This document shows positions 29,923-63,251 of a stretch of DNA of 64,000 nt, one piece after another. The position numbers and the translations under genes were made by a program. Each line of letters starts with the position of its first letter. The stretch's first letter is position 1. Origin of the DNA: Occallatibacter sp. (lineage in GTDB: Bacteria > Acidobacteriota > Terriglobia > Terriglobales > Acidobacteriaceae); assembly GCA_031296305.1 (NCBI GenBank), contig JARLFZ010000005.1, positions 1-64,000 on the forward strand. The letters run 5' to 3'. The notes below the pieces were generated by a model. It saw nothing but the letters and a program-made list of their open reading frames with translations. It was not told the DNA's origin and did not search any database.

Positions 29923-30927
29923 ATGCCGCAAAATCTACTGGAACAGCTACGTAAGCACAGCGTGATTGTCGTTGACACCGGCGACATCGAGGCCATGGAG
30001 CGCTTCAAGCCGCGGGACGCCACCACTAACCCCTCGCACATTACCAACGCGGCCAAGATGCCGAAGTATCAGCCCATTCTGGATGGGGAGTTGCTGAGCG
30101 CGCGCAAGGAATTGGGCGCGGACGCGAGCGATCAGGCGGTTGCCAACCTGGCTTTTCGTCGGCTGGGCATTGCGTGGGGCAAAAATATTCTCGCCGTGGT
30201 TCCGGGCCGCGTGTCGACCGAGGTCGACGCGCGCTTGTCGTACGACACCGAAGCCAGCATTGCGCAGGCGCGGAGCATTATTGCGCAATATGAGGCGGAA
30301 GGAATTTCGCGCGAGCGGATCCTGGTGAAGATTGCGGCGACGTGGGAAGGCACCCGGGCCGCAGAGGTGCTTGAGAAGGAAGGCATCCACTGCAACCTAA
30401 CGCTGATTTTTGGAACGTTCCAGGCTGTTGCGGCGGCTGAGGCCGGGGCGACTCTGGTTTCGCCGTTTTGCGGCCGAGTTCTCGATTGGTACAAGAAGGA
30501 AACCGGAAAAGAATATTTCGGCGCTGACGATCCCGGAGTGATTCACGTGACCGCGGTTTACAACTACTTCAAGAATTTTGGTTACAAGACTGAGGTGATG
30601 GGCGCGAGCTTTTGGAATGTTGGCCAAGTGCGCGAGCTGGCGGGCAGCGATCTGCTGACGATTGCGCCGAAGGTGCTGGCCGAACTGGAAGCCGTTGACG
30701 ACGAACTGACGCCGAAGCTCAGCGTTGAAGCGGCGAAGGCGATGCCCATTGAGAAAATTGTCGTGGACAGCAAGGAAACCTTCGAGCGCCTGCTTGCCGC
30801 CAACCGCATGGCCACTGACAAGCTGAAGGAAGGCATCGAAGGTTTTTCCGCCGCGCTCGTCGAATTGGAGACGCTGCTGGCGAAGCGCCTTGCCGAACTG
30901 GAATCGCGCGCCACGGCAACCGCGTAA
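29923..30927 (+). CDS. tal: Transaldolase
   Basis: 334 residues, the length of TalB-type enzymes. Signatures are DATTNPSHITNAAKMPKY near residue 35, the Schiff-base lysine in ILVKIAATWEGTRAAE, and HCNLTLIFGTFQAVAAAEAG. The enzyme moves a three-carbon dihydroxyacetone unit between sugar phosphates. It opens a run of co-directional genes that ends in sulfolactate desulfonation. In the transaldolase type of sulfoglycolysis, such an enzyme splits 6-deoxy-6-sulfofructose, giving sulfolactaldehyde and fructose 6-phosphate; the PFK downstream would use that product. That substrate is inferred from context. The family in Bacillus sulfoglycolysis is shorter, so this would be a separate recruitment, or an ordinary pentose-phosphate enzyme. 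Confidence 0.93.
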   Translation: MPQNLLEQLRKHSVIVVDTGDIEAMERFKPRDATTNPSHITNAAKMPKYQPILDGELLSARKELGADASDQAVANLAFRRLGIAWGKNILAVVPGRVSTEVDARLSYDTEASIAQARSIIAQYEAEGISRERILVKIAATWEGTRAAEVLEKEGIHCNLTLIFGTFQAVAAAEAGATLVSPFCGRVLDWYKKETGKEYFGADDPGVIHVTAVYNYFKNFGYKTEVMGASFWNVGQVRELAGSDLLTIAPKVLAELEAVDDELTPKLSVEAAKAMPIEKIVVDSKETFERLLAANRMATDKLKEGIEGFSAALVELETLLAKRLAELESRATATA

Positions 30928-30999
30928 TCACGGCGCGCGCAGGGCAAAGCGCAGCGCTGAAATTTAGCAGGGCTCGAAGGCGAGAAGAGAAGGACGCGA

Positions 31000-32172: not shown

Positions 32173-32195
32173 TGCACTGGATGGAAAGGATGAAC

Positions 32196-33578
32196 ATGCA
32201 GAAGTCTGAGACAACTGCCGCGCAAAAGCCGATTGGCGTGCTGATACTGGGACGCAAGCGCCCCGGATTCGACCAGGAATGGAACCAGATTATTTGTGGG
32301 CGCGCCCTGGCTGCGCTGAAGGATATGGGCTACGCGACAGTCGGAGCCGAGACGCCGGTCATCGACGATGCCACCATCGCAGTGGCGCTCGACAAGATTC
32401 GCGCGGCTGGATGCCAGGCGCTGGTGATGTTGCATCCCTCGATGGGAAATGGGCAACTGGCGTTGACGGTAGCGCAGCAGTGGCCCGATCCGGTGGTGCT
32501 GTGGGCCACGCCGGAGCGGCCGGGCGATGGCAAGGTGAGCTCGTGCTCGCTGGTGGGGCAACATCTGTGGGGGTCGACGCTGCGGCAAGCGGGGCATGCG
32601 TTTGAGCTTGTGTATGGCGATCCGGACGATAAGACTTTACGCGCGGAGATGGTGCGGGCGATCGCCATTGCGCGCACAGTGGCGGTGCTGCGCAGTGCGA
32701 AAGCAGGTGTGATCGGAACGCACGCACCCGGATTTATCGACCTCGCCGCCGATCCGTTTCTTCTGCAAAGGACCATGGGCACGCAGTTGCACCCGTTGAG
32801 CCTGCCACAGTTTGTGGAGCGCGTGCATGCGATTGCTGAAGAGAGTGTGCGCAAGGATGTGGAGCGCGTTCTCGATCTGAAGCTGCCGATGCGCGACGTG
32901 ACGAAAGACGATTTGCCGATGAGCTCGCGTTGCTATTTGGCAATGCGGGAACTGATGGCAGAGGAAAGCCTGGACGCGATCACGATTCAATGCTGGCCCG
33001 AGTTGCCTAACATGATTGGGCAGTGGCCGTATCTCGCGGTTTCGCGGCTGGGCACCGAGAGCGTTGCGGTTGCGATTGAAGGCGATGTGGATGGTTCCAT
33101 AGGCAGCCTGATGAGCCGCGAGTTGGGAGCGGGGACCGGGTACCTGAGCGACTGGCTGGAGCACGATCGCAACACGATTTTCTTTTGGCATCCGGGCATG
33201 GCGCCGATGGATATGTGCAATCCGGTGGGTTCGGAAGGCGGGCCAACGCTGGCCAAGCACTTCAACATTGTGAAGCCGATGGTGGTGGACGGAAGTCTTC
33301 GCAGCAACGAGGACGTGACCATAACGCGGCTATGGCGGTGCGACGGCCGCTATCACATGACGGCGTTTGAAGGGCGCAGTGTGGCGCCGAGGCGCAAGGT
33401 GACCGGAAATATGGTGCTGGTGGAAGTGAATGAGACCGCAGGCAGCGGCGATGTGCCAGCGCGTTTTGACCGCCTGGTGCACGCGGGCATGCCGCACCAC
33501 GTGCTGCTGTCGTTTGGCAAGCAGCAAGAGACGTTCCGGAGATTGGCTAGAGCACTGAACGTGGAATGGAGCGAGTAG
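32196..33578 (+). CDS. L-fucose/L-arabinose isomerase-family protein (candidate sulfosugar isomerase)
   Basis: 460 residues from the ATG at 32196, chosen because aaagga precedes it; ATGs at 32172, 32181 and 32190 are alternatives, the first overlapping the PFK stop. The N-terminal half is the Rossmann-like fucose-isomerase domain (IGVLILGRKRPGFD). The C-terminal half has the metal and substrate region VAIEGDVDGSIGSLMSREL and the loop FFWHPGMAP, as in fucose isomerase (EGDV, HCGNAP). The family converts aldoses to ketoses with a divalent metal. Placed between a PFK and an aldehyde dehydrogenase leading to SuyAB, it may convert sulfoquinovose to sulfofructose; this is inferred. Confidence 0.8.
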   Translation: MQKSETTAAQKPIGVLILGRKRPGFDQEWNQIICGRALAALKDMGYATVGAETPVIDDATIAVALDKIRAAGCQALVMLHPSMGNGQLALTVAQQWPDPVVLWATPERPGDGKVSSCSLVGQHLWGSTLRQAGHAFELVYGDPDDKTLRAEMVRAIAIARTVAVLRSAKAGVIGTHAPGFIDLAADPFLLQRTMGTQLHPLSLPQFVERVHAIAEESVRKDVERVLDLKLPMRDVTKDDLPMSSRCYLAMRELMAEESLDAITIQCWPELPNMIGQWPYLAVSRLGTESVAVAIEGDVDGSIGSLMSRELGAGTGYLSDWLEHDRNTIFFWHPGMAPMDMCNPVGSEGGPTLAKHFNIVKPMVVDGSLRSNEDVTITRLWRCDGRYHMTAFEGRSVAPRRKVTGNMVLVEVNETAGSGDVPARFDRLVHAGMPHHVLLSFGKQQETFRRLARALNVEWSE

Positions 33579-33610
33579 GGAGCGGAAAGTGTAGTCGCGG
33601 GAGTAGGCGA

Positions 33611-33659
33611 GCGCGGGCGGGGACGCCCGCACTACAGCCGGTCTGGAGACCGGCGCTAC
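33611..33659. repeat. Dispersed repeat family B, copy 2
   Basis: gcgggcggggacgcccgc, then ctacagccggtctggagacc and ggcgctac. The core GCCGGTC-TGGA-GACCGGC hairpin matches the copy at 28481-28541. It occupies most of the 133-bp gap inside the catabolic operon. Confidence 0.7.
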
Positions 33660-33711
33660 ATAAAAGAACGGCGCTACAAGCCAGAGGTAGCGCACATGCG
33701 AGGCGAAGCGG

Positions 33712-35151
33712 ATGAGCAACGACGAGCAAAAATCGTACAAGGTGTATTTCGGCGGGAAGTGGATTGAGACCGGCGAGAAGATCCAGATCACGGATCCGGC
33801 GACGGGCGAAAAGTTTGCCAGCGTTTCCGCGCTCAATCGGGATCAGGTGCATTCGGCATTCGACGCGGCGCAGGCGGCATTCCCCGCGTGGCGCGCGCTC
33901 ACAGCCAAGGAACGCGGCGCATTTTTGTTTCGCGTGGCCGACGAAGTGCACAAGCGCGCGGATGAGATTGCGCACCTGATCACGCTCGAAAACGGCAAGC
34001 CGCTGGCGCAGAGCAAAGGCGAGATGGCGATGACCGAGGACCATCTACGCTGGTTTGCCGAGGAAGGCCGGCGCGCTTATGGACGGGTAATTCCGCACCA
34101 GGCGCCGGGCAAGCGCAACATGGTGGTCAAGACGCCTATCGGCGTGGTGGGCGCGATTGCTCCGTGGAACTTTCCGCTGGTGTTGGGCATTCGCAAGGCC
34201 GCTCCGGCGCTGGCCGCGGGTTGCCCCGTGGTGCTCAAGCCTTCTTCGCAGACGCCGCTCAGTTCGATTGCTTTCGCCGAGTGCGTTGAGGCGGCCGGAA
34301 TTCCCGGCGGCGTTTTCCAGCTTGTGATCGGCAGCGCGCGGATGATTGCCGAGGAGTTTCTTACCAATCCCATCTGCCGCAAGATCACGTTCACGGGCTC
34401 GACTGAAGTGGGAAGGGAACTGATCAAGGGAGCGGCGCAAGCGATCAAGCCGCTCTCGCTCGAGCTGGGCGGGCTGGCACCGCTGCTGGTGTTCGACGAT
34501 TGCAATCTTGACCAGGCAGTGCAGGAGACGCTCATCGCGAAGTTCCGCAACACCGGGCAATCGTGTATCGCGGCGAATCGCATCTACGTGCAGCGTTCCA
34601 TTCACGACGAGTTCGTGAAGCGGTTCGTCGCCGGAGTGCAGAAGCTGAAGACCGGTCCCGGATTGGAGCCGAGTGTCGACATCGGACCGCTCATCAACCA
34701 GCAAGGGCTGGACGCGGCATTGGCGCAGATTGAAGAAGCAGTGGGCCGCGGCGGCAAAGTTCTTTGCGGCGGCAAGCGCAAAGGATCGACGGGCTACTTC
34801 CTGGAGCCGACGGTGATCGACGGAGTGAGCGCAGCATCACTGTGCATGCGCGAGGAGACGTTTGCGCCGGTGGCCCCCATTACGACGTTTGAAACCGAAG
34901 ATGAGGCGATCGAGTTGGCGAATGGCAGCGAGTTCGGACTGAGCGCCTACGCGATGACGCGCGACATTGCGCGCATCTTCCGGTTGGCGGAACGCATCGA
35001 GGCAGGAACCCTAGGCATCAATGACGGCGCGCCGACAACGAGCAATGCCCCCTTCGGCGGCGTGAAGCAAAGCGGATGGGGCCGCGAATTGGGCAGCGAA
35101 GGGTTGGAAGCATTTATGGAGACGAAGCATGTCTCTTTTGGCGGAATGTGA
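33712..35151 (+). CDS. GabD-type NAD(P)-dependent aldehyde dehydrogenase (candidate sulfolactaldehyde dehydrogenase)
   Basis: 479 residues with the full ALDH fold. Key parts are IGVVGAIAPWNFPLVLGIRK (cofactor site), FTGSTEVGRELIKGAA, the catalytic Glu in LELGGLAPLLVFDD, the catalytic Cys in FRNTGQSCIAANRIYVQ and the C-terminal GVKQSGWGRELGSEGL. Closest overall to succinate-semialdehyde dehydrogenases, which bind an acid group next to the aldehyde. Sulfolactaldehyde dehydrogenases of sulfoglycolysis belong to the same branch and oxidise sulfolactaldehyde to sulfolactate. suyA begins 36 bp downstream, so sulfolactate is the expected product here. The alternative is a ketoglutarate- or succinate-semialdehyde enzyme. 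Confidence 0.88.
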   Translation: MSNDEQKSYKVYFGGKWIETGEKIQITDPATGEKFASVSALNRDQVHSAFDAAQAAFPAWRALTAKERGAFLFRVADEVHKRADEIAHLITLENGKPLAQSKGEMAMTEDHLRWFAEEGRRAYGRVIPHQAPGKRNMVVKTPIGVVGAIAPWNFPLVLGIRKAAPALAAGCPVVLKPSSQTPLSSIAFAECVEAAGIPGGVFQLVIGSARMIAEEFLTNPICRKITFTGSTEVGRELIKGAAQAIKPLSLELGGLAPLLVFDDCNLDQAVQETLIAKFRNTGQSCIAANRIYVQRSIHDEFVKRFVAGVQKLKTGPGLEPSVDIGPLINQQGLDAALAQIEEAVGRGGKVLCGGKRKGSTGYFLEPTVIDGVSAASLCMREETFAPVAPITTFETEDEAIELANGSEFGLSAYAMTRDIARIFRLAERIEAGTLGINDGAPTTSNAPFGGVKQSGWGRELGSEGLEAFMETKHVSFGGM

Positions 35152-35187
35152 CATTTTCACGGAAGGAACAATGAAGGAGCAAATGCG

Positions 35188-35469
35188 ATGATTCAGTTTC
35201 TCGTTCACGATACAGCGGACACGGTTGGCGTGGCCGTCGTGGATATTGCGGCCGGAACAGAGTTGACCGGCCGGGATCTCTCAACCAATAAGCCACTGAC
35301 GGCGAAGGCGGCGCAGGATATTCCGCTGGGCCACAAACTGGCGCTCAAGGATTTGGCCGTGGGCGACACGGTGATCAAGTATGGCTGCGAAATCGGAAAG
35401 ATCGTGCAGCCGGTCAAGGCCGGGCAACACGTGCACGTGCAGAATTTGAAGACGAAGAGGTGGGCATAA
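35188..35469 (+). CDS. suyA: (2R)-sulfolactate sulfo-lyase, small (alpha) subunit
   Basis: 93 residues, a single SAF domain like the N-terminus of altronate dehydratase. The start [17 protein letters not shown], the core [19 protein letters not shown] and [10 protein letters not shown], and the end [12 protein letters not shown] match SuyA as I know it, and its length (about 90) fits. SuyAB removes sulfite from (R)-sulfolactate, leaving pyruvate. In UxaA the same domain serves altronate dehydratase and the two are easily confused; the following large subunit is the better discriminator. AAGGAGC precedes the ATG, and the stop overlaps the suyB start (TAATG), indicating coupled translation. Confidence 0.85.
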
Positions 35470-36632
35470 TGAAGGACCAGACAATTCATGCGTATCGGCG
35501 TGAAAATGGGCGCGTCGGCGTTCGTAATCACGTGATTATCCTGGCCGTGGACGATATTTCGAATGCCGCGACCGAGGCTGTGGCTAACAACATTAAGGGA
35601 ACGCTGGGCCTACCCCACTCGTACGGACGCCTGCAGTTCGGCGAGGACCTCGAGCTTTTCTTCCGCACCATGATCGGCACCGGCTCGAATCCCAACGTGG
35701 CCGCGGCGATTGTGATCGGCATTGAGCCGGGCTGGACGCAGAAGATTGTGGACGGCATCGCGAAGACCGGCAAGCCGGTGGCCGGATTTTCCATCGAAGG
35801 CCAGGGCGACATCGCGTGCATCGCGCAGGCTTCAAGGAAGGCGAAGGAGTTTGTGCAGTGGGCGACGGAGCTGCAGCGCACAGAGTGCAAGTTCAGCGAG
35901 CTCTACATTAGCGTGAAGTGCGGCGAGAGTGACACCACCACCGGGCTTGCAAGCTGTCCCGCGGTCGGCAACGTGATTGACAAGCACTGCGCCAACGGCG
36001 GCATGGCCTCCTTCGGCGAAACCACGGAGCTGACCGGCGCCGAGCATATTGTGGCCGCCAAGGCCGTGAATGAAGCGGTGCGTGCGCAGTTCCAGGCCAT
36101 GTTTGATGACTACCAGAAGCTGGTATTCGGCCAGAAGACCGACGATCTCTCCGAATCGCAGCCGACGAAGGGCAACATTGCCGGCGGATTGACGACTATC
36201 GAAGAGAAGGCGCTGGGCAACGTGGAGAAGCTGGGCAAGCACACGAAGTTCGTCGGTTGCCTGAAACCGGCAGAGATGCCCACGGACAAGGGCCTGTGGT
36301 TCATGGATACGTCGAGTGCCGCTGCAGAAGCCGTGACACTATGGGCGGCTTCGGGTGCGGTGGTGCACTTGTTCCCGACGGGACAAGGCAACGTGATCGG
36401 CAATCCCATTGAGCCGGTGATCAAGCTCTCGGGAAATCCCAAGACCGTAAAGTTGATGGCCGATCATATCGACGTGGACGTGTCGCCGGTTCTGCAGGGC
36501 GAGATGACGCTCGACCAGGCTGGCGATGCGTTGATCGAGATGATCGTGCGCACAGCGAACGGACGGAATACTGCGGCGGAAGCGCTGGGTCATCGCGAGT
36601 TTGTGATGACAAAGCTCTATCGCAGCGCGTAA
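35469..36632 (+). CDS. suyB: (2R)-sulfolactate sulfo-lyase, large (beta) subunit
   Basis: 387 residues, the SuyB length. It belongs to the UxaA/GarD lyase family, but its wording follows SuyB from memory of known sequences: [133 protein letters not shown] and [17 protein letters not shown]. With SuyA it forms an iron-dependent cytoplasmic lyase splitting (R)-sulfolactate into pyruvate and sulfite. The start codon overlaps the suyA stop. Two sulfolactate-dehydrogenase-like genes follow. Altronate dehydratase is the alternative but fits the neighbours less well. Confidence 0.87.
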
Positions 36633-36831: not shown

Positions 36832-36861
36832 AAGCGCCAATCGCTTTTTATTGAGGCTTTT

Positions 36862-37926
36862 ATGAATCGTTATTCCAAAGAAACGCTTGTTAGCGTCGTG
36901 ACGCAACTGGCAGCCGGAATGGGCGTGCCTGTTGCCGATGCGGCGCTTTTTGCCGAGGTGCTGGTGGATGCCGACGTGAGCGGCGTCTCCACCCACGGGG
37001 TCTCGCGGCTGAATATTTACCTGAAGCGCATCGATTTGGGACTCATCGATCCCAGAGCGAAGCTGAACATTGACCGGCAAGCGGGGAGCGTGCTGGTTCT
37101 CGATGCCGGGAACGGGCTCGGACAGATACAGGCGCGCAAGGCTCTCGACCTGCTGATGCCGATGGCGCGCCAGAATGGCGTGGCGACCGCGACCATTCGC
37201 AACTCACAGCACTTTGGCGCGCTGTCATGGTACGCAAACTTCGCGGCCAGCCAGGGCATGGTTTTGCTGGCCATGACCAACTGCGAGCCGGCCATGTCGC
37301 CTGAAGGCGGATACGAAGCATTTTTTGGCACCAACCCCATCGCCGCTTCATTCCCCACCGGCAAAGGATTTCCGGTGAAGATCGATCTCGCGACTTCAGG
37401 CGTTGCGCGCGGCAACATCATCGCCGCACAAAAGAAAGGCCAGCCCATTCCGCCGGGCTGGGCCCTCGACGCGCAAGGGAATCCAACCACCGATGCATCG
37501 CAGGCGCTGCTGGGCACGGTGCTCACCATGGCAGGGCACAAGGGCTATGCGCTGGCGATGATGGTGGAGCTTTTCAGCGGCGTGCTTTCGGGCTCGGCGA
37601 TCGGCCCGGACGTGGGCTCGATGTACAAGAACCTCGATCGCAAGCAGGATGTGGGCCATTTCTTCTGCCTGTTCGACGTGAAGGCTTTCCTCGATTACGA
37701 CGAGTACCTCAAGCGCATCGACGAAACCATCGATCGCATCAAGAGTTCGAAAAAGCGCCCTGGCGTAGAAGAGATTCTGGTTCCCGGCGAGCGTTCCGCG
37801 CGGAAAGCCGCCATCAACAATGCCGAGGGTGTCCCCGTTTCACCCGAGACGATCGCGGAGATCGAGCAGTGGTGCTCCCGCTTGCACGTCGCATTCAATT
37901 GTCATGAGGTGGTAGGCCAGCCATGA
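36862..37926 (+). CDS. comC: Malate/L-lactate dehydrogenase-family oxidoreductase (ComC-like, candidate (R)-sulfolactate dehydrogenase)
   Basis: 354 residues of the Ldh_2 family (LDH2/MDH2), distinct from classical Rossmann LDH. Visible signatures are VDADVSGVSTHGVSRLNIYL, the active-site region TIRNSQHFGALSWYANFAAS, FGTNPIAASFPT and MAGHKGYALAMMVELFSGVLSGS. The family reduces or oxidises 2-oxo/2-hydroxy acids with NAD(P). ComC, (R)-sulfolactate dehydrogenase, is a member, first known from coenzyme M synthesis and also used in sulfolactate degradation. Its place between suyB and a SlcC-like gene supports that role: together they would convert (S)- to (R)-sulfolactate through sulfopyruvate. 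Its start is 229 bp after suyB; its stop overlaps slcC by 4 bp (ATGA). Confidence 0.8.
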   Translation: MNRYSKETLVSVVTQLAAGMGVPVADAALFAEVLVDADVSGVSTHGVSRLNIYLKRIDLGLIDPRAKLNIDRQAGSVLVLDAGNGLGQIQARKALDLLMPMARQNGVATATIRNSQHFGALSWYANFAASQGMVLLAMTNCEPAMSPEGGYEAFFGTNPIAASFPTGKGFPVKIDLATSGVARGNIIAAQKKGQPIPPGWALDAQGNPTTDASQALLGTVLTMAGHKGYALAMMVELFSGVLSGSAIGPDVGSMYKNLDRKQDVGHFFCLFDVKAFLDYDEYLKRIDETIDRIKSSKKRPGVEEILVPGERSARKAAINNAEGVPVSPETIAEIEQWCSRLHVAFNCHEVVGQP

Positions 37927-38912
37927 AGGATATTTTGACCGATATTTTGATTTCGGAAAACATTCAAGGCGCCGGTGTCGATGCGTTGGGCGCTAGGTTT
38001 CGTGTCGCCTTCCAGCCGGATTTGTGGAAGGATCCGGCACTGCTTGCCGAAAAGGTGAAGCAATGCAGGGCGCTGATCGTGCGCAACCAGACGCCGGTGA
38101 CAGCGTCGCTTATCGACGCGGCGCAAGAGCTGCTGGTGATTGGCAGGGCCGGGGTGGGGCTCGACAATGTCGACTACAAACACGCCGAGAAAGCTGGCAT
38201 TGTGGTTTCGTTTACGCCGGACCAGAATGCCATCAGCGTGGCCGAGATTGCCATCGGCATGATGCTGTCGCTGGCGCGATTTATTCCCGCCGCCGACGCG
38301 GATACGAAGAAGGGCAACTGGAACCGGCAGCGCTTCGTGGGCACGGAGCTCTACGGCAAAACGCTGGGCATCGTGGGCGCGGGCAAGATCGGATACCTGA
38401 CTGCGCGGCGTGCGATGGCGTTCGGCATGAAGGTTCTGGCCTACGATCCTTTTCTGAGCCGGGACAATATTCTGCTGAGCGAAGTGCAGGCCGAGTTGGT
38501 GGAGCTGGATGAGTTGCTGGCGCGGGCGGACGTGGTTTCGTGCCATTTGCCGGCTACGACGCAGACCGTGGGGCTGCTGAACCGCGAGCGCTTCATGAGC
38601 ATGAAGCCGGGCGCGTTTTTCATCAACACTTCGCGCGGCAAAGTGGTAGTGGAACAGGATTTGGTGGAGGCGCTGAAGGCCGGGATTGTGGGAGGAGCGG
38701 CGCTGGATGTGCGGAGCAAAGAGCCTCCGCAGGTGGGCGAGCTCGAGGCCATGCCGAACGTGATTCTTTTGCCGCACATCGCGGCGTTCACCAACGAGGC
38801 GCAGGATCGCGTGACGGCGGCAATCTGCGAGGATGTGGCGAGAGTGCTGGACGGAAAGCCGGCGCTGAATGCGGTGAAGCGGGCAATGCCAATGCCGCGC
38901 GTTACTTCCTGA
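37923..38912 (+). CDS. slcC: D-isomer-specific 2-hydroxyacid dehydrogenase (SlcC-like, candidate (S)-sulfolactate dehydrogenase)
   Basis: 329 residues without an ACT domain, so not a housekeeping SerA. It has GRAGVGLDNVDY, the NAD loop GIVGAGKIGYLTARRAMAFG, the catalytic Arg in INTSRGKVVVEQDLV and the Glu/His pair around DVRSKEPP and LPHIAAFTNEAQ. SlcC, an NAD-dependent (S)-sulfolactate dehydrogenase, belongs to this family and has similar length. Co-translation with the comC-like gene (ATGA overlap) suggests the two interconvert sulfolactate isomers to feed SuyAB. Its last 11 bp overlap the end of the convergent DUF1080-PHP gene. Another hydroxyacid substrate is possible. Confidence 0.8.
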   Translation: MKDILTDILISENIQGAGVDALGARFRVAFQPDLWKDPALLAEKVKQCRALIVRNQTPVTASLIDAAQELLVIGRAGVGLDNVDYKHAEKAGIVVSFTPDQNAISVAEIAIGMMLSLARFIPAADADTKKGNWNRQRFVGTELYGKTLGIVGAGKIGYLTARRAMAFGMKVLAYDPFLSRDNILLSEVQAELVELDELLARADVVSCHLPATTQTVGLLNRERFMSMKPGAFFINTSRGKVVVEQDLVEALKAGIVGGAALDVRSKEPPQVGELEAMPNVILLPHIAAFTNEAQDRVTAAICEDVARVLDGKPALNAVKRAMPMPRVTS

Positions 38913-43292: not shown

Positions 43293-43298
43293 AGCCAT

Positions 43299-53975: not shown

Positions 53976-55130
53976 CTAGCTTTCAACTTCCTCGCGTACC
54001 GAGAGCACGATCTTGTAAAACACCGTGATGAGAAACGCACCGACGGACCAGATTCCTGCAACAATGGTCCACTCCGGCAGCGAAGGCGCATAATGCGCGA
54101 TCGCACCCAGCGGCGACGGCACAAAGCCGCCCACGATCAAGCCCAGCCCCTTCTCAAGCCAGAGCGAGGTGAACACAAGGATGCACGCGATGGGCAGTTG
54201 TGTGCGGCGCCAGGCAGGCGTGAATAGAATAACCAGCGCAGCAATCGCGAATATTGCGGAAACCCACATCCAGGGAGCGAGATTGTGCCCACCACCAAGC
54301 AGATAGAGATATTCAAAATGCACGGTGTGTTCCGGAATAGCCGCGTAAAACACCGTGAATACCTCGACTAACACGAAAAAGACATTGATCGTCATCGCGT
54401 AGGTCATGATGACGGCGAGCTTGCGAATGGCGTCTTTGCCTACGTCGTATGCGGTGAGCTTGCGCAGCGCAAGACAAAGCAGGATGAGCAATGCCGGACC
54501 AGAAGAGAATGCCGAGGCGAGAAAGCGCGGCGCAAGAATCGCTGTAAGCCAGAACGACCGGCCGGCAAGGCCGCTGTAGAGAAATGCGGTGACGGTATGG
54601 ATGCTTATGGCCCAGGGGATGGAGAGAATTGCCAGTGGCTTGATCCATCGCGGCGCTGGCGTCTCTTCGCGTTCCGCGCGCAGCGTAACGAAGGCAACGA
54701 TGGCGTTCAGCAGCAGGTAGCCGCTCAAAGAGACCATGTCCCAGAACATGAGCGAGCGCGGCGAGGGGTAAAGAATGATATTGAGCACGCGCGAGGGCTG
54801 GCCGAGATCGACAAAGATAAAAAGGATGCACATGATCACCGAGACGATGGCGAGAAACTCGCCAAGAATCGTGACGCGCGCGAATTGCTTTTCGCGATGC
54901 AGATAATAAGGCAGCACAACCATGACGGCCGATGCGGCGACGCCGACAAAGAAAGTGAATTGCGCGATGTAGAGTCCCCAGCTCACGTCACGGCTTAGGC
55001 CCGTGATGCCCAGGCCCTGGTTCAGTTGTCGCAAATAAAAACAGAGGCCGGCAACGATGACGCATAGCAAACAGAGCAGCCACATCCAGTAGCGGCGGCT
55101 TCCTTTGAGCGCTTTGTCGAGCATCAACAT
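53976..55130 (-). CDS. dsrP: DsrP, NrfD-family membrane subunit of DsrMKJOP
   Basis: 384 residues from the ATG at 55130, 4 bp after the dsrO stop. About ten membrane helices, NrfD/PsrC-like: WGLYIAQFTFFVGVAASAVM, VDLGQPSRVLNIILYPSPRS and TAFLYSGLAGRSFWLTAILA. It lacks obvious cofactor motifs, as usual. DsrP with DsrO is thought to exchange electrons with the quinone pool for the complex. The frame extends 48 residues upstream but that part overlaps dsrO and is not conserved. Confidence 0.93.
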   Translation of the reverse strand: MLMLDKALKGSRRYWMWLLCLLCVIVAGLCFYLRQLNQGLGITGLSRDVSWGLYIAQFTFFVGVAASAVMVVLPYYLHREKQFARVTILGEFLAIVSVIMCILFIFVDLGQPSRVLNIILYPSPRSLMFWDMVSLSGYLLLNAIVAFVTLRAEREETPAPRWIKPLAILSIPWAISIHTVTAFLYSGLAGRSFWLTAILAPRFLASAFSSGPALLILLCLALRKLTAYDVGKDAIRKLAVIMTYAMTINVFFVLVEVFTVFYAAIPEHTVHFEYLYLLGGGHNLAPWMWVSAIFAIAALVILFTPAWRRTQLPIACILVFTSLWLEKGLGLIVGGFVPSPLGAIAHYAPSLPEWTIVAGIWSVGAFLITVFYKIVLSVREEVES

Positions 55131-55134
55131 GGCA

Positions 55135-55899
55135 TCAGACCAGGTAAAAAACCGACGGACCAGTTCCGAGTTCGGGTTCGCGCTGCACGGCAAAACGCTC
55201 GCGCAGTAGTTGACGCGGCTCCGACTCCGGGTCCGCAAGATTGCCGAAGGTGAAGACACGCTGGGGACAGGCATCGACGCAGGCCGGCTTGAGGCCGCGC
55301 GCGAGCCGCTCTTCGCAGAAGTTGCACTTTTCTACCACGCCTTTGGTGCGCGTGGGGAAATCGGGGTTGATGCTCTCGATGCTGGGCCGCGGATCTTCAA
55401 AGTTGAAGCTGCGCGAGCCATAGGGGCAGGCGGCGACACAATAGCGACAGCCGATGCAGCGATGCCAATCCATCATTACGATGCCGTCGTCGCGTTTCCA
55501 TGTGGCTTGCGTGGGACAGACGCGCGTGCATGGCGGGTTGGCGCAGTGATTGCAAAGCAGCGGGACTTTCGTCTCTGTGACGGTTTGCGGGGCGAAGTCA
55601 GTTTGCGCGGAAGGAAAGACCGTGGCATCCGGCTCGGTCCAGATCCATTTCACTTCGTGCGCATGGTTGGCAATCTGCGGAATGTTGTGCGCGGCGTTGC
55701 AGGCATGGATGCAGGCGTTGCAGCCATCCTTTTCGCGGCACTTGCTGAGATCGATCACCATTCCCCAGCGCACAGGTTGCGTCGACGCGGCGCGTACGCT
55801 CGATGCAGGCTGGCTGACGGATTCCGCCGCTCGCTTGCATCCGGCAGCAAGCAGCGAAAGGCCGGAGATGCGCAGAAAATCTTTGCGCGTAATCTTCAT
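55135..55899 (-). CDS. dsrO: DsrO, periplasmic ferredoxin-like subunit of DsrMKJOP
   Basis: 254 residues from the ATG at 55899, which overlaps the dsrJ stop (ATGA). Four cysteine groups for [4Fe-4S] clusters are present: CREKDGCNACIHACN, CNHCANPPCTRVCP, CIGCRYCVAACPYG and CNFCEERLARGLKPACVDAC. The N-terminus TRKDFLRISGLSLLAAGC looks like a Tat signal but has RK in place of the twin arginines, and also a lipobox (LAAGC), so it may be a Tat-exported lipoprotein. The RK variant is tolerated in some Tat signals. It would pass electrons between DsrP and the haem protein DsrJ. Confidence 0.95.
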   Translation of the reverse strand: MKITRKDFLRISGLSLLAAGCKRAAESVSQPASSVRAASTQPVRWGMVIDLSKCREKDGCNACIHACNAAHNIPQIANHAHEVKWIWTEPDATVFPSAQTDFAPQTVTETKVPLLCNHCANPPCTRVCPTQATWKRDDGIVMMDWHRCIGCRYCVAACPYGSRSFNFEDPRPSIESINPDFPTRTKGVVEKCNFCEERLARGLKPACVDACPQRVFTFGNLADPESEPRQLLRERFAVQREPELGTGPSVFYLV

Positions 55900-56312
55900 G
55901 GCGTGCTCCGAGTTCTGGAGCCGGCGACAGTTTGCGGATCGTTGTGGCAGTTCCAGCAGTACGGATCGGAGACACCGGAATAGGCGTGGCAGCGGTCGCA
56001 GAATTGTTCCTTGTTGTGGCAACCGAGGCAGGTGCGCGTGAGGCTTTTCTCGTAGACCTTGCCATTGAAGGCAACAAAGCGACGGTCGCCATGGCGCACT
56101 ACATCTTCTCGCCATTGGATCAGCATCTGCATGTGCGCGGCGCGCATGGTGCCAGCGGGCGCTACGCATTCCTTCTGATTCGCAGGTAGCTCGAGGTTGG
56201 GAGGTTTGCTCTTGTTCGATGCCTTCCCATTCGCGACTGCATACCAGGCGGGACAGGTGAGCGCCGCAACGAAGAAGGCCAAACCGGCAAAGATCCACAC
56301 ACGATCACGCAT
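55896..56312 (-). CDS. dsrJ: DsrJ, tri-haem cytochrome c of DsrMKJOP
   Basis: 138 residues with an N-terminal membrane anchor (VWIFAGLAFFVAALTCPAWY) and three CxxCH haem sites: CLGCH (95-99), CDRCH (105-109) and CWNCH (119-123). Cys49 lies in KECVAPAGTMRAAHM, the region that supplies the unusual His/Cys haem ligation in DsrJ. It faces the periplasm. The start overlaps the dsrK stop by 8 bp and the stop overlaps dsrO by 4 bp, so translation is tightly coupled. Confidence 0.95.
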   Translation of the reverse strand: MRDRVWIFAGLAFFVAALTCPAWYAVANGKASNKSKPPNLELPANQKECVAPAGTMRAAHMQMLIQWREDVVRHGDRRFVAFNGKVYEKSLTRTCLGCHNKEQFCDRCHAYSGVSDPYCWNCHNDPQTVAGSRTRSTP

Positions 56313-57927
56313 GGCCGGCCTCGTTCGCAGTGGTGGCCGCGTATGCCTCGGCTGGGAACGGTTCGCCGCGCAGATCGGCGACGCGTTCCTTTTCTCCGGT
56401 CATCACCAGCGCGTTGCCTACGAGTTCGTGCACGCCGGCGACTTCGACGCCCGGCACCCAATACTCAAGCAGCGTGGGCAGCGTGGCCTTGTCGATGGCG
56501 CAGATGCAAGTGAGCAGATTGACGCCGTGCTTTTGCTTCACGTATTTCACGGCGTTGGCGCGCGGAAAGCCGCCGCGCAGGCGCATTTCGAGGTTTTCGT
56601 CGGTGCCGAGGCCAGCGCCCGAGCCGCAGCAGAAGGTCTGCTCGCGGATGGTGTTTTCTGGCATCTCATGGAAATTACGGCAAACAGCCCTGAGAATGGA
56701 TCGCGGCTCTTCCAGCAGGCCCATGGCCCGCGCCGGATTGCAGGAGTCGTGATAGGTTGCGATCCAGCGATCGTTGCGCCGCGGATCGAGCTTGAGTTTT
56801 CCGTGATGGATCAGGTCGGCGGTGAACTCGCAGATGTGCACCATTTTTGTGGAGCGGGCATTCTCGAAGACTGTGCCGGTGAGGGGCGAGACGGGCACGC
56901 CGAGAAAATCGGCCGGGCCGTTCATCGTATCCATATATTGGTGCAGCACGCGCCACATGTGACCGCACTCGCCGCCGAGAATCCATTTGACGCCGAGACG
57001 TTTGGCTTCCTCGTAAATCTTGGCGTTCAGGCGCTTCATCATTTCGTGCGAGGAGAAGAGCCCGAAGTTTCCGCCTTCCGAGGCGTAGGCGCTGACGGTG
57101 TAGTCGAGGCCGATTTCGCGAAAGAGCATCAGGTAGCCGAGCAGCGTGTAGTAGTGCGGCGTGCCGAAGTAGTCGGCCGAGGGCATGACGAAGAGCACTT
57201 CGGCGCCTTTGCGGTTGATGGGAACGTGGAAGTCGAGCCCGGTGATCTCCGCGGCCTCGTCGGCCGCAAAGTCGAGGCTGTCTTTGAATCCATGCGGCTG
57301 GATGCCGAGATGATTGCCGACGCGAAAGCAATTGGCGGCGGGCTCAAGCACCCAGTTGGTGTTGCAGCCGATGAGATTGAGCAACTCGCGGCCCATCATG
57401 GTGATCTCCGCGGTGTCGATGCCATAGGGGCAGAAGACAGAGCAGCGGCGGCACTCGGTGCACTGGTAGAAGTAGTAGAACCACTCCTTGATCACGTCTT
57501 CAGTGAGCTCGCGGCCACCGGCCAGCTTGCCAAAAATGCGCCCGGTCAACGTGAAGTAGCGGCGGTAGATAGAACGCATCAGCTCCGCGCGTGCCACGGG
57601 CATGTTCTTGGGGTCGGAGGAGCCGAGATAGAAGTGGCATTTGTCGGCGCAGGCGCCGCAGCGTACGCAAATGTCCATGAAGAGGCGGAAGGAGCGGTAT
57701 TTATCGAGGCGCTCTTTCATGCCGTCGAGGATAATGCGTTTCCAATCCGGCGGAAGCTTCCAGTCTTTATCGAGCGGCTGCCAGGCGCGCGGATTGGGAA
57801 GGCCGAGAGCAGTGAGATTTTTAGGCGCGGCACTGTAGCAGATCGAGCCCTTGCGAAACTCGACATGCGAGTCGCGCCAGTCGCCATGCGGCGGCTTTAG
57901 CTCAATTTGTACGAGCGTTTCCGGCAT
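56305..57927 (-). CDS. dsrK: DsrK, HdrD-like cytoplasmic catalytic subunit of DsrMKJOP
   Basis: 540 residues from the ATG at 57927; ATG 57939 and longer forms are possible. Two [4Fe-4S] motifs (CVRCGACADKCHFYLG and CTECRRCSVFCPYG) are followed by the CCG domain region (ATYHDSCNPAR and QTFCCGSGAGLG) that binds the unusual cluster of HdrB/HdrD-type enzymes. DsrK reduces the DsrC trisulfide, linking DsrAB to the membrane chain. It overlaps dsrM by 26 bp and dsrJ by 8 bp. All key cysteines are kept. Confidence 0.95.
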   Translation of the reverse strand: MPETLVQIELKPPHGDWRDSHVEFRKGSICYSAAPKNLTALGLPNPRAWQPLDKDWKLPPDWKRIILDGMKERLDKYRSFRLFMDICVRCGACADKCHFYLGSSDPKNMPVARAELMRSIYRRYFTLTGRIFGKLAGGRELTEDVIKEWFYYFYQCTECRRCSVFCPYGIDTAEITMMGRELLNLIGCNTNWVLEPAANCFRVGNHLGIQPHGFKDSLDFAADEAAEITGLDFHVPINRKGAEVLFVMPSADYFGTPHYYTLLGYLMLFREIGLDYTVSAYASEGGNFGLFSSHEMMKRLNAKIYEEAKRLGVKWILGGECGHMWRVLHQYMDTMNGPADFLGVPVSPLTGTVFENARSTKMVHICEFTADLIHHGKLKLDPRRNDRWIATYHDSCNPARAMGLLEEPRSILRAVCRNFHEMPENTIREQTFCCGSGAGLGTDENLEMRLRGGFPRANAVKYVKQKHGVNLLTCICAIDKATLPTLLEYWVPGVEVAGVHELVGNALVMTGEKERVADLRGEPFPAEAYAATTANEAGHA

Positions 57928-58927
57928 CTTCGGTCTCATTCTCGATTTCAAGCGGAATTCCCGCAGCCTGCATCTTGTCGCGGAATTCTTCTTCCCATTC
58001 CACATAAGCGTGGGTTTTTACGGGAGCGTTCCAAGGATTGATATGCCGCTGGCTACGACTGTTGTTGGCGAGGTTGCGGGTCGGGCTCAGGAACACGCCG
58101 CTCATGTGCATCAATTTGCTGAACGGGAGATATGCAGCGAGCGCGCAGACCAAGAGCAAATGGCAAAGAAACAGCGCGCTTAGCGCCTGCGAAGCGCCCG
58201 GCCGGAACGCGGCCAGGCCAAGTGCAAATTGCTTCACGCTGAGTATGTCGACACGTGTGAAGTAGCGCATGAGAATGCCAGTGACGGCGATGGCCAGCAG
58301 CAGGAACAGCGCGAAGTAGTCAGAGAAAAGCGAGAGGTAGCGCAGGGCGGGATCGCGAAAACGCCGGAACAACAGAAATGTCATCGCGCTGACCAGAATC
58401 ACGTCAGAAAAATAAAGCGGCGGCACGCCAATCTGGAAGTAGCCGTCGAGACGCTCGAGAGCGTTGACGAATGCCGGAACGGGCTCGAGGAACAGTCGCA
58501 GATGGCGGAGCATGATCAACAGCAACGTCCAATGAAAGGCCAAAGAACAAAGCCAGAGGCTCGCACTCTCACCCAGAATCAGGCGTCCGCCCGAAAGGCG
58601 CGCGCGATTGTTGCGAAAGAGCGAGCGGAAGAGCAGAATTTCGGCGGCCATACGAGACACGACACCCCATCGCGTAGAAGGATTGTCGATTTTCGCGAAA
58701 CGGATCCAGACAAGCGATTTCTGCTGACCGCAGGTGACGGGAATATGGAAGGGAACTGGCACGAATGCCCAGCGGGCGACGCGCCAGCAGAAGCCAATGA
58801 GAAGCGCAGCGAAAGCTGCGTAGGGAACGAACGTGGCAAGAACCATGCGTGCCGGTGCGCCTTGCCCGCACGCAAAGCCGGCCAAAACCAGGGCCAGCAC
58901 CGCGAGCAGTGAATAGAGCGCATTCAT
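57902..58927 (-). CDS. dsrM: DsrM, NarI-like cytochrome b subunit of DsrMKJOP
   Basis: 341 residues from the ATG at 58927 (a GTG at 58954 overlaps dsrT). Six hydrophobic segments, including SLLAVLALVLAGFACG, FAALLIGFCWRVARWAF and SLWLCSLAFHWTLLLIMLRH; histidines in FHWTLL, MLRHLRL and ALFLCHLLLV are suited to haem b. DsrM passes electrons between the quinone pool and DsrK. It follows dsrT by 11 bp. Confidence 0.93.
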   Translation of the reverse strand: MNALYSLLAVLALVLAGFACGQGAPARMVLATFVPYAAFAALLIGFCWRVARWAFVPVPFHIPVTCGQQKSLVWIRFAKIDNPSTRWGVVSRMAAEILLFRSLFRNNRARLSGGRLILGESASLWLCSLAFHWTLLLIMLRHLRLFLEPVPAFVNALERLDGYFQIGVPPLYFSDVILVSAMTFLLFRRFRDPALRYLSLFSDYFALFLLLAIAVTGILMRYFTRVDILSVKQFALGLAAFRPGASQALSALFLCHLLLVCALAAYLPFSKLMHMSGVFLSPTRNLANNSRSQRHINPWNAPVKTHAYVEWEEEFRDKMQAAGIPLEIENETEDAGNARTN

Positions 58928-58938
58928 GATTGGTCCCG

Positions 58939-59385
58939 TCACTTTGCCGCGCACTGCATGCGCAAGCGCAACTCTTTTTCGCGCAACCCTGCAATCTGAT
59001 CGCGGCAGGCCATGTACTGGTCGAAGGCCATCAAAGCCATTTCGTCGATCCGAATTTCAAGAGCCTGCGGAGGAGCGCCTATGACTTCAACCACCACGTC
59101 GCGAAGGTCGAAGATAAAGCGCAGCGCGTCGGAGGGACGAAAATCCTGCACGGCGCGAAGGCGGACTAAAGCATCGAGTGCGGTCGCAATAGCGCTTTCT
59201 TCCATTTCGCCGAGCAACTCGTGGGCCAGCGTGGTCAAGCTCTGCTTGATGGCATGGCCCGCGGGATTGCGGAAGGGATCCGTCTCGCCGCACAGGAGCG
59301 CATGCGCCTCCGCTGGATAGGAAGCGAGAGTGCGCTCGATCCAACGCTCCGCGACAATTTCTGCGATGGCTCCGCTCACGCTCAT
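58939..59385 (-). CDS. dsrT: DsrT, RsbRD-N-like protein
   Basis: 148 residues. ETDPFRNPAGHAIKQSL and LVRLRAVQDFRPSDALRFIF are the signature of the RsbRD N-terminal domain carried by DsrT. DsrT is found between dsr genes in Chlorobi and in many sulfate reducers, often just before dsrM as here; its function is not known, though it has been linked to sulfide formation or signalling. It starts 6 bp after dsrC, so it is firmly within the operon. Confidence 0.85.
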   Translation of the reverse strand: MSVSGAIAEIVAERWIERTLASYPAEAHALLCGETDPFRNPAGHAIKQSLTTLAHELLGEMEESAIATALDALVRLRAVQDFRPSDALRFIFDLRDVVVEVIGAPPQALEIRIDEMALMAFDQYMACRDQIAGLREKELRLRMQCAAK

Positions 59386-59391
59386 GGCAAC

Positions 59392-59709: not shown

Positions 59710-59723
59710 AATTCACCTCACAA

Positions 59724-60914
59724 TTAGTTCATTGCTATGTATCCGCACGGACACGACTCCGCACATTTTCCGCAACCGTTACAGAGATCGAGCTTGATTT
59801 TGTAGTGCTCGCCTTTGGGCAGCTTGACGAAGCAGTTTTTGCTGCAGTACATCCAGCAGGTCTCGCAGTCCATGCACATGCCGCATGACATGCAGCGCGC
59901 GGCCTCGGCAAGCGCCTCGGCCTCGGTCATCGCAGCGCCGCCATCGACGCGCTGTGCGGCTGCCGGATGCCAATCGAGCTTCAAACTTTCAGAACGAATG
60001 ACGGCAGGTGCGGCAGTCTGCGCTGCACTGCGGCCTTCAAGGTGCGCAGAGATGGCTTCGGCGACTGCGCGTCCCTGGGCAATTGCGACGCTCACGGTGT
60101 TGAGCACACGCGGGACAGCTTCGGTAGCTTCTTCGGCCGGAATGTCCGGTGGCTCCGCGGGCAACTCGCCGATAAGCGCTGCGACGCCATTGCTGCCGGC
60201 GCGCAACTCCAATTGCGCAGCCTTTTGCAGCCCCATGGCGAAGAATACGACCTGGTAGTTTCGTTGCAACTCTTCTAGCGAAAGATCCTGGCCGACAACG
60301 CAGCCGGTGCGCAACTCGATGCCGAGACCAAGGATGTTTGTAATTTCAGCATCGAGGATATCGGCGGGAATAAGCGAGCGAGGGATGCGAGAACGCATCA
60401 TGCCGCCGGGCCGGGGTGCGGCGTCGATGACGGTGACCGTGTAGCCCTTGCGGGCAAGATGCCAGGCGGCAGAGAGCCCGGCAGGACCTGCGCCGACTAC
60501 GGCGATGCGCGGCGCATCGGCGCGGGGTGGAGTGATTGTCTCGGCGCGCAATCCTTGTGCGATGGCAAAATCACCGACGAACTGCTCCAGTTTGTTCACG
60601 GCAAGCGGGCCGTCTTTGGCTTTGCGATTGCAATTCAGCTCGCAAGGATGCTGGCAGACGCGGCCGCAGATAGCAGGGAAGGGATTGTGCTCCAGAATCT
60701 TGCGCCAGGCGAGCTCAATAGCTTGCTCAGGCGTGCGGCCATAGGCTTTATGCTGGGCCAGCGCCACGAGCCACCCGCGCACATCGGTTCCACTGGGGCA
60801 GCTATGGATGCAGGGAGCCGTTTTCGCGATGTAGGCGGGGCGATGGGTGCTGACGCCAGCGTCAGCGGCGCTATGCTTGATCACCGGCTTCTTCACTTCT
60901 TTGAATAGCCCCAT
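59724..60914 (-). CDS. dsrL: Shortened DsrL: FAD iron-sulfur oxidoreductase without the NAD(P)H-binding domain
   Basis: 396 residues from the ATG at 60914. Residues 35-95 carry the GltD-like Fe-S motif (CIHSCPSGTD, CGRVCQHPCELNC). An FAD loop is at 141-146 (GAGPAG), and the C-terminal FAD part is seen in NTVSVAIAQGRAVAEAI (272-288). The end is a ferredoxin-like region with cysteines 341, 344, 347, 350, 353 and 378, 381, 384, 388. Characterised DsrL is about 650 residues and has a NAD(P)H Rossmann domain inserted between the two FAD parts. Here that segment is only about 35 residues (240-275) with no second GxGxxG. The frame is open throughout, so this is not a simple frameshift. NADH use is therefore unlikely; ferredoxin or DsrAB partner transfer remains possible. 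Confidence 0.88.
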   Translation of the reverse strand: MGLFKEVKKPVIKHSAADAGVSTHRPAYIAKTAPCIHSCPSGTDVRGWLVALAQHKAYGRTPEQAIELAWRKILEHNPFPAICGRVCQHPCELNCNRKAKDGPLAVNKLEQFVGDFAIAQGLRAETITPPRADAPRIAVVGAGPAGLSAAWHLARKGYTVTVIDAAPRPGGMMRSRIPRSLIPADILDAEITNILGLGIELRTGCVVGQDLSLEELQRNYQVVFFAMGLQKAAQLELRAGSNGVAALIGELPAEPPDIPAEEATEAVPRVLNTVSVAIAQGRAVAEAISAHLEGRSAAQTAAPAVIRSESLKLDWHPAAAQRVDGGAAMTEAEALAEAARCMSCGMCMDCETCWMYCSKNCFVKLPKGEHYKIKLDLCNGCGKCAESCPCGYIAMN

Positions 60915-60948
60915 CAGCAACCTCTACTCGTCGTCTGCAATGCCCGCA

Positions 60949-62037
60949 TTAATAGCGAATGTGTGTCGAGCGCGCGAATGTCATGCCGGCGTTCTTGAAA
61001 TCATCGATGTGATAGCGCGTGAACTCGAAGCCGGTGAGCTCGAAGAACCGCGGCCAGCCAATGCGATCGATCCATTCGCCCACGCGCTCGTACTTACGGG
61101 CTTCGCCGCGATAGACATCGACAATCTTCGTTACTGCTTCGATAACTTCAGGCCAGCGCGGCGGATTGTTGGGCAGGAACGGGATCGAAAGACGTGAGAA
61201 GCGTGGAGCGCTGCGCGCATTGCTGACCTTGCCGCCGACCCAGATGGAGAGCCCGTCGTTTTCCGCATCAGCCATGCGCATGGCCGGACAAACGCTGAAG
61301 CAGTTGCCGCAGTACATGCAGTCTTCTTCCAGGACTTCGACGGATTGCTTGCCTCCCACACCGGGTACCGGACGAATTGCGCCTGTGGGGCACGAGGCAA
61401 CCAGCGTGGGCACCTCGCAGGCCTTCGTGAGCAAATCGTTTTGGACCTTGGGCGGGCGGCGATGCACGCCGAGGATGGCAATGTCGGAACAGTGCACTGC
61501 GCCGCACATGTTCAGGCAGCAGGCCACGGCGATGCGCAGCTTGGCGGGCAGATCTTCGTGCGTGAAGTGATCGATGAGCGCATCCATCATGCTCTTGACC
61601 AGCCCCGAAGCGTCAGTAGCCGCGGCGTGGCAATGCACCCAGCCCTGCGTGTGCACAATGTTGCTGATGGCGTTGTTGGTGCCGCCAACGGGAATGCCCA
61701 GCAATGCGAGCTCCTGCTTCAGCGGTTCGATCTGCGCCGGATCGGTGAGGAGAAACTCAACATTGTTGCGGCTGGTAAAGCGCAGATAGCCGCCGCAATA
61801 TTTGTCGGCGAGATCGGCATACTTGCGCAGGGTTTGAATGCTGAGCAAGCGCGGCGTGCCCCCACGCACGGTGTAGAGGCGGTCGCCCGATTCGGCAACA
61901 TGGCACAGAACGCCGGGCGCCAGGGTCTCGTGATATTTCCACGTGCCGTAGTTTTTGAGCACGATGGGCGGCAGATATTTGTCGTAGCGTGGAGGCCCGA
62001 CGTCGGTAAGCCGTGGTTGCAGCGGTGTGGTCGTCAT
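60949..62037 (-). CDS. dsrB: Dissimilatory sulfite reductase beta subunit
   Basis: 362 residues. [20 protein letters not shown], then [20 protein letters not shown], are DsrB hallmarks near the sirohaem-[4Fe-4S] site. The inserted ferredoxin domain has [11 protein letters not shown] and [20 protein letters not shown]. With DsrA it forms an alpha2beta2 cytoplasmic enzyme that reduces sulfite to a DsrC-bound trisulfide, or can run in reverse in sulfur oxidisers. It overlaps dsrA by 4 bp (ATGA). DsrD in the operon favours the reductive direction. Confidence 0.98.
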
Positions 62038-63251
62038 GCCTCATCCTCCTTCGCGGGTTGGTAGTAGATGTAAGGGTTGTCGCGCGGCGCGGAAACCATC
62101 TCCGGCGCGGGATCGAGCCCGATGCCATCGAGAAATGCGGCAAGCCCGACGCGCTGAATCAATTCGCCGATGCGCTCGCGATTGGTACCGTACTCATCCC
62201 AGAAATCCCAGATGCGCTGTATGAGCTCCTTAAGTGTGTCGAGCAATTCATCCGCTGCGACAAAGGGAATCAAGACGGAGGAGAGCAGTGCGCCCTGCAG
62301 AATGGGCGCTTTGGCGCCGATCAGGATCACTGCGCCTTTTTCCACGCCGGGCCGCAGAGCCTTGGGCATGGCGTTGATGCAGTGCATGCAGCGCACACAG
62401 TCGCGGTTTTTGATGTTGAGCTCTTTGCCATTCCAATCCATGCACCTGGTGGGGCAATTGGCGCAGATGTCTTTTTGAATGTCGACTCCGGCGGTGGCGT
62501 AGTTCGCAACTTCTGCCTGGTCGATGCGAATATCGTCCTTCCACGTGCCGATGACGGAAAGATCGGCCCGGGCAATGGCGGCGACGCAATCGTTGGGACA
62601 GGCCGAGCATTTGATCTTGAATTTGTAAGGCAGCGCAGGCCGATGCAGCTCGTCCTGATAGGCCATGGTCAGGTCGTAGCAAAGCTTCATGGCGTCGAAG
62701 CAGGCCCATTCGCAACGGGCCATGCCCACGCAGCAGGAAGGCGTGCGCACCGCCGAGCCCGAGCCCCCAAGATCGAATCCGGCGTGGGTCAGTTCCTGGA
62801 AGGTCGCTTCGAGATGATCGGTCGTTGTGCCGAGCAGGATCATGTCCCCAGTTGAGCCGTGCATGTTGGTCAGGCCCGAGCCGTGACGCTCCCAGATGTC
62901 GCTGATGGTGCGCAGAGCCTCACTTGTGTAGAACCATCCGGCCGGCTGATTCACCCGCAGAGTGTGAAAGTGCGCAACCTTGGGAAACTGCTCGCCCACA
63001 TCGCTGTAACGGCCGATGACTCCGCCACCATAACCCAGCACGCCCACGAGGCCGCCGTGTTTCCAATGGCTCACCTTGTCTTCGTAGGAAAGCTCGAGCT
63101 GGCCGAGCAGATCCTCTGCGCCCCCGGTAACTCCCTGGGCCGACTTGATCTCTGTGACGAAGCTGGGCCACGGGCCTTTTTCCAGTTCGTCGAGCAGCTT
63201 GGTTTCGGGTTTGCCGTTGGCGGGTTTTACGCCCTCGTCTGCATCTGCCAT
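62034..63251 (-). CDS. dsrA: Dissimilatory sulfite reductase alpha subunit
   Basis: 405 residues from the ATG at 63251, which has AAGGAG 8 bases upstream; an in-frame ATG at 63302 lacks this. The sirohaem/cluster cysteines are in [14 protein letters not shown] (C174, C180) and [18 protein letters not shown] (C218, C222). The ferredoxin domain has [11 protein letters not shown] and [25 protein letters not shown] near the N-terminus is typical of DsrA. It is the first gene of the long minus-strand cluster, diverging from the siroheme-synthase gene. All expected catalytic residues seen are present. Confidence 0.98.

Follow-up and report, generated by a model that had tools for sequence, protein, structure and literature searches.

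Sulfoquinovose is produced at about 10 billion tons a year (PMC10755693), and its anaerobic turnover to sulfide has been described as cross-feeding in which one microbe ferments the sugar and another respires the sulfonate (PMC8397734, PMC13219744, PMC11659671). In these two-partner systems of gut, rumen and sediment, sulfoglycolysis is followed by sulfite respiration through Dsr, as is proposed below, but the two halves reside in separate organisms and are linked by 2,3-dihydroxypropane-1-sulfonate (DHPS) or isethionate. The stretch of DNA considered here, the first 64,000 bases of an 86,235-bp contig (C127) from the acidobacterium Occallatibacter sp. (hereafter the window), carries a predicted sulfosugar island at 29.9-49.3 kb and a dsr island at 49.4-63.3 kb, with a gap of 114 bp between them. 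The main proposal, to which we assign a probability of about one half, is that the first island would convert a six-carbon sulfosugar, likely sulfoquinovose, by way of sulfolactate to pyruvate and sulfite, and that, without leaving the cell, the sulfite would be taken on to sulfide by the adjoining dsr island. Published systems are compared as they are described in sections of the cited papers.

Part of this coupling has been proposed before. Hausmann et al. 2018 (PMC6018796) suggested sulfite respiration from sulfolactate or other organosulfonates in the acidobacterial metagenome-assembled genomes (MAGs) SbA4 and SbA5, reporting suyAB in both MAGs and, for SbA5, slcC and comC as well; a 2023 review (PMC10591310) repeats the proposal. 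The coupling of sulfolactate cleavage to Dsr in Acidobacteria is thus already published, and the novelty that the original prediction had claimed for it falls away; the word "sulfoquinovose" is absent from the main text of Hausmann et al. 2018. SbA5 (Candidatus Sulfotelmatomonas gaucii), which is counted in the genus of the window's genome, likewise combines suyAB, comC and slcC with a sulfite-reducing dsr set in one MAG, at identities of 73-94% for the genes from transaldolase to aldolase, 69-78% for the PF01261, Gfo and outer-membrane genes and 68-90% for the dsr genes, but its two islands are not adjacent. Among sulfoglycolytic routes, the sulfo-Embden-Meyerhof-Parnas variant Sulfo-EMP2 (SqvD, SqiK, SqiA; PMC9594981) shares with the window a fucose-isomerase-like isomerase, a PF00365 kinase and, by prediction, the oxidation of sulfolactaldehyde. 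It is reported for Firmicutes, however, and ends at sulfolactate or DHPS, and the window has a class I, PF01791-type aldolase in place of the class II SqiA, with no SqvB seen. The sulfofucose route of Paracoccus wurundjeri (PMC12421959) resembles the route proposed for the window in leading from a sulfosugar through sulfolactaldehyde and SlcC, ComC and SuyAB to pyruvate and sulfite within one organism, but its front end is of the Entner-Doudoroff (ED) type and the sulfite is released unreduced. No description of sulfoquinovose use together with Dsr in one organism was found in the titles, abstracts and consulted sections of the open-licence PubMed Central literature.

A proposed route from sulfosugar to sulfide

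The sugar would enter through a large outer-membrane beta-barrel protein (PF25183; 45867-49286, plus strand) and a major facilitator superfamily (MFS) transporter (40398-41669, minus strand) with a predicted role in sulfosugar uptake. A protein of the arabinose/fucose-isomerase fold (32190-33578, plus strand, start codon picked by eye), predicted to be an SqvD/SftI-like sulfoquinovose isomerase, would yield 6-deoxy-6-sulfofructose, which a PfkA-family kinase (PF00365/NF010675; 31000-32172, plus strand), the predicted sulfofructose 1-kinase, would phosphorylate at C1. Cleavage to dihydroxyacetone phosphate and sulfolactaldehyde would fall to a LacD-type class I aldolase (41713-42714, minus strand), named from sequence comparison as a putative sulfofructose-1-phosphate aldolase, with a TalAB-type transaldolase (29923-30927, plus strand) as a second cleavage route. 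An aldehyde dehydrogenase of the succinate-semialdehyde dehydrogenase family (33712-35151, plus strand) would act as sulfolactaldehyde dehydrogenase and deliver sulfolactate, to be racemised by SlcC and ComC and split by SuyAB into pyruvate and sulfite. DsrAB, DsrC and DsrMKJOP would then reduce the sulfite, and a YeiH-type transporter could serve as overflow exporter. By our own arithmetic, conversion of the sugar to two acetate and two CO2 releases eight electrons and sulfite accepts six, so that one cell would come near redox balance. A fuller version of the proposal, which we offer tentatively and regard as doubtful, is a single-cell respiration in which sulfoquinovose would be the electron donor and, by its sulfonate group, the acceptor, giving acetate, CO2 and sulfide with no partner; sulfoglycolysis would be a hybrid that combines an SqvD-like isomerase and a PfkA-type kinase with a class I aldolase of LacD type and a recruited transaldolase, and a 3-keto route acting outside the cytoplasm would replace the sulfoquinovosidase in opening glycosides.

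Were the proposal true, it would identify a plant-derived source of sulfide in low-sulfate peat and soil in which no sulfonate intermediate is set free, and would account for the retention of Dsr without sulfate activation in SbA5-type acidobacteria. For sulfoglycolysis the island would also represent a new combination of enzymes, with the kinase, transaldolase and aldolase as candidates.

The predicted sulfosugar island

The original prediction had offered sulfolactate or a sulfosugar as the substrate, and did not name the sugar enzymes (29.9-33.6 and 41.7-42.7 kb); it is these enzymes that make the sulfosugar the better half of that choice. The kinase belongs to PF00365, one of the two families of sulfofructose kinases (PF00365 or PF00294), has Gly where pyrophosphate-dependent enzymes have Asp, and together with the kinases of 15 relatives has lost the basic residue of the C6-phosphate site (16 of 16). 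The sole other PF00365 kinase of the genome, at 19292-20431 on the minus strand, is an ordinary phosphofructokinase that retains the C6-phosphate Arg. In the transaldolase (334 aa) Trp replaces Arg228 of TalB, a residue that the housekeeping paralogue elsewhere in the genome retains, and with this exchange the enzyme may function like a sulfofructose transaldolase. It is not one of the short BmSF-TAL-type enzymes, to which it gives a partial match (E 1.5e-11). The aldolase aligns with YihT through the Lys and the SxGV/AGRA motifs. Two Arg of the aldehyde dehydrogenase answer by eye to Arg171 and Arg289 of RlGabD; they fit succinate-semialdehyde dehydrogenases too and are not counted as support. 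Given the front-end enzymes and the losses at the C6-phosphate sites of kinase and transaldolase, suyAB most likely forms the last part of an island for sulfoglycolysis.

A single scan of a collection of species genomes with the isomerase returned 17 loci, 16 from Acidobacteria and one from a spirochaete. The kinase precedes the isomerase in all 15 acidobacterial loci with upstream sequence (the sixteenth, L015, begins inside the gene), and the aldehyde dehydrogenase, suyA and suyB follow it in 10 of the 16, five others (L004, L005, L007, L010, L013) being too short to show all three. Further downstream comC and slcC are found in eight loci, with L008 and L019 ending before that point. The aldolase is present in six (L006, L009, L011, L012, L014, L016) and absent from L017 and L018, and the transaldolase stands beside the kinase only in L004, L005 and L006. 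A gene between isomerase and dehydrogenase in L014 and L016 reads by eye as a GntR-type regulator. In a more distant locus (L073, genome G057, 6960-9847) a 62% identical aldehyde dehydrogenase lies beside a 45% identical isomerase, with a GH92 hydrolase adjoining and suyAB not found within 18 kb.

The suyA (35188-35469; 93 aa, overlapping the start of suyB), suyB (35460-36632), ComC-like (36862-37926) and SlcC-like (37923-38912) genes, all on the plus strand, are present at 35-39 kb as first described. All four fall below NCBIfam cut-offs, and their names therefore rest on the SuyB tree, gene order and SbA5: the best family of the ComC-like protein is L-sulfolactate dehydrogenase (NF040650, 272 bits against a cut-off of 500), and that of the SlcC-like protein, named by position and by SbA5, is phosphoglycerate dehydrogenase (340 bits against 454). 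A 21-row tree places the window's SuyB in a 15-row clade on a branch of 100/100, apart from six rows comprising E. coli UxaA, Enterobacter GarD, an Azospirillum altronate dehydratase, the same-genome paralogue and two more UxaA-like proteins, with a possible misplacement of the long UxaA-like rows as a caveat. The tree leaves out L001 and L008, whose matches were too short, and L004, L005, L007, L010, L013, L017 and L020, which have no suyB match. A placement among altronate dehydratases, on which the original prediction would have failed, is thus not what is seen, and SuyAB is predicted to be a sulfolactate sulfo-lyase apart from altronate and galactarate dehydratases. The clade includes SuyB of Cupriavidus pinatubonensis strain HN-2, and SuyAB was identified in strain JMP134 of that species (PMC12890257). 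Its plasmid-borne members adjoin hpsN and hpsO in one case, a gene of the sulfate exporter family in another, and TauE together with an oxidoreductase of the Ldh family and one dependent on NAD(P) in a third; in the plasmid collection identities drop from 59.5% to 40.2% with none between (best 16 of 315 records).

The dsr island

The full dsrABLCTMKJOP-cobA-dsrD-dsrN cluster is present on the minus strand. NCBIfam cut-offs are exceeded by dsrA (62034-63302), dsrB (60949-62037), dsrM (57902-58954), dsrK (56305-58005), dsrO (55135-55899) and dsrP (53976-55274). Profiles identify dsrC (PF04358; 59392-59709), whose product retains a C-terminal pair of Cys at a distance of ten residues, dsrT (RsbRD_N; 58939-59385), cobA for uroporphyrinogen-III methyltransferase (53112-53945) and, together with comparison to SbA5, the CobB-like dsrN (51413-52837), while dsrJ (55896-56312) and dsrD (52861-53115) are open frames with 73% and 85% identity to the SbA5 dsr cluster. 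The set for sulfite reduction (dsrAB, dsrC, dsrMKJOP and dsrD) is complete. No match to sat or aprA was found in the genome, a 4.10-Mb MAG (171 contigs, 84% completeness, 1.6% contamination), and dissimilatory sulfate reduction is not assigned; the genome would reduce sulfite without sulfate activation, with room left by its missing part. Just past the window, at about 64.4-66.6 kb of the contig (L053), lies a second DsrM/DsrK-like pair with 26-28% identity, and SbA5 is alike in this.

The dsrL gene (59724-60920, minus strand) is present in a short form of 398 aa that retains the part binding flavin adenine dinucleotide and the C-terminal iron-sulfur part but has lost the second, NAD(P)-binding Rossmann part. 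DsrL of SbA5 (L047:9979-11166) is likewise short, judged by its equal length, and that of DX1.bin66 (L050, about 2556-4256) includes the part lost here; a short DsrL in acidobacteria had been noted by Hausmann et al. 2018 (PMC6018796). With this part gone, the electrons for DsrAB probably come from a donor other than NAD(P)H. Beyond dsrN stand a LysR regulator (50428-51345, minus strand, start provisional) and the YeiH-type transporter, a predicted sulfite/sulfate exporter (PF03601; 49401-50321, minus strand). The exporter stands as first named, but the regulator had been called YeiE-like, and the YeiE profile ranks third for it and below cut-off.

Do the two islands act together?

Several results weigh against the proposal. 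Co-occurrence was assessed in three class draws (isomerase, SuyB and DsrA) of 299 genomes each, taken from shared handles to be the same 299 and from SbA5 to represent the class Terriglobia; one SuyB search scored the 8000 candidates with most shared words. SuyB is present in 11 of the 12 isomerase-bearing genomes. Six of the 12 belong to families other than the window's, with isomerases 45-48% identical that may serve a different use; SuyB is found in all of the remaining six, the window's own included. The isomerase (12 genomes) and DsrA (17) share two genomes (p 0.14, not significant). The original prediction had suggested looking for suyAB in other dsr-bearing acidobacterial genomes, and genomes with both do exist, but SuyB (32) and DsrA share only three, which is not above chance (p 0.27). 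Within the 17 isomerase-bearing genomes of the scan, dsrA exceeds its cut-off in two (SbA5 and DX1.bin66), DBS1-1.bin77 having in addition a dsrA fragment at a contig end. In SbA5 the islands are on separate contigs, the sulfosugar contig running 19.6 kb further without dsr, and a conserved unit of the two islands is therefore rejected.

These counts bear most directly on the explanation that the sulfosugar island is real while its sulfite is exported through YeiH or used otherwise, dsr serving other sulfite and the adjacency being due to chance. Twenty-nine of the 32 SuyB genomes lack dsrA, the islands are apart in SbA5, and candidate exporters accompany suyAB elsewhere: a gene of the "putative sulfate exporter family" follows suyAB in Paracoccus versutus, and the Methylobacterium suyAB region holds a TauE-type gene. 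An inner source of sulfite would, however, suit the Dsr of a genome without a sat or aprA match, and both islands are found in SbA5 and DX1.bin66 and, with dsr as a fragment, in DBS1-1.bin77. We consider this explanation unlikely, if a serious contender. The predicted flow of sulfite from SuyAB into Dsr is plausible. Given the non-adjacency in SbA5 and the few genomes with both isomerase and dsrA, conversion of sulfosugar to sulfide in one cell would not be the rule for the island, and is possible in a few lineages.

It is also conceivable, though improbable, that the front genes act on another sugar, which could be sulfofucose or some further sulfosugar, or else an ordinary sugar, the sulfolactate then being taken up from outside. 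The isomerase has the right fold, but its best profile, SftI (NF048012), scores 153 bits against a cut-off of 700, its PF02952 score is below cut-off, and the sulfoquinovose-isomerase profile also matches two other proteins of the genome at 98 and 112 bits; with this lack of specificity in a same-genome control, the NF048012 match was dropped as proof. The aldolase has tagatose-type enzymes as its nearest relatives, far nearer than YihT, the known sulfofucose route also ends in SlcC, ComC and SuyAB (PMC12421959), and L017 carries kinase and isomerase with no suyAB in 10 kb. Against these stand the loss of C6-phosphate residues in kinase and transaldolase and the co-occurrence of isomerase and SuyB, which point to a C6 sulfosugar, and the ED-type character of the known sulfofucose route, for which the consulted sections report no isomerase activity (PMC12421959).

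That two genomes were wrongly joined near 49.3 kb, as a junction not seen in SbA5 might suggest, is highly improbable in view of the absence of N, the even GC content (0.56-0.61), the codon-usage correlation of 0.95 between the islands and the presence of both in the SbA5 bin, and the two islands, which lie on one contig, are taken to belong to one genome; the original prediction is not refuted on this point.

Glycoside opening and neighbouring genes

No clear sulfoquinovosidase of GH31 or GH188 was found in the genome (84% complete) or among 16 relatives; the best YihQ match is 84 bits in this genome (32% over 217 of 677 residues) and 148 bits in the relatives (28%, in BP7.bin24). A sulfoquinovosidase was also sought near distant isomerases (the spirochaete locus L020 at 37-38%; L072 and L073 at 45%), where the long frames examined proved to be a DNA ligase, a GH92 hydrolase, a primase, a sigma factor and a DUF5054 protein. 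A Gfo/Idh/MocA oxidoreductase (44600-45790, plus strand), a xylose-isomerase-like PF01261 protein (43701-44603, plus strand) and a protein with a 3-keto-disaccharide-hydrolase domain (PF06439; 38902-40395, minus strand) could together form a 3-keto route that opens the glycoside. The first two have N-termini judged by eye to be of the twin-arginine translocation (Tat) kind, and the solved structures nearest to the Gfo protein carry dehydrogenase names. Its assignment as a GH188 sulfoquinovosidase was rejected on rank, 8qc2 (E 7.7e-5) standing far below 8tdf and 8tdh (about 1e-25).

A further PF01261 protein with a Tat-like N-terminus (28561-29418, minus strand) flanks the sugar genes opposite the one at 43701-44603, and several relatives (L004-L009, L019) also have it next to the island. 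By eye, a dyad lies where two genes converge at the island boundary, and an Rfam scan found one tRNA. The frame at 24772-28299 (minus strand) encodes a protein of 1175 aa in which MFS transporter, acyltransferase and AMP-binding domains are fused.

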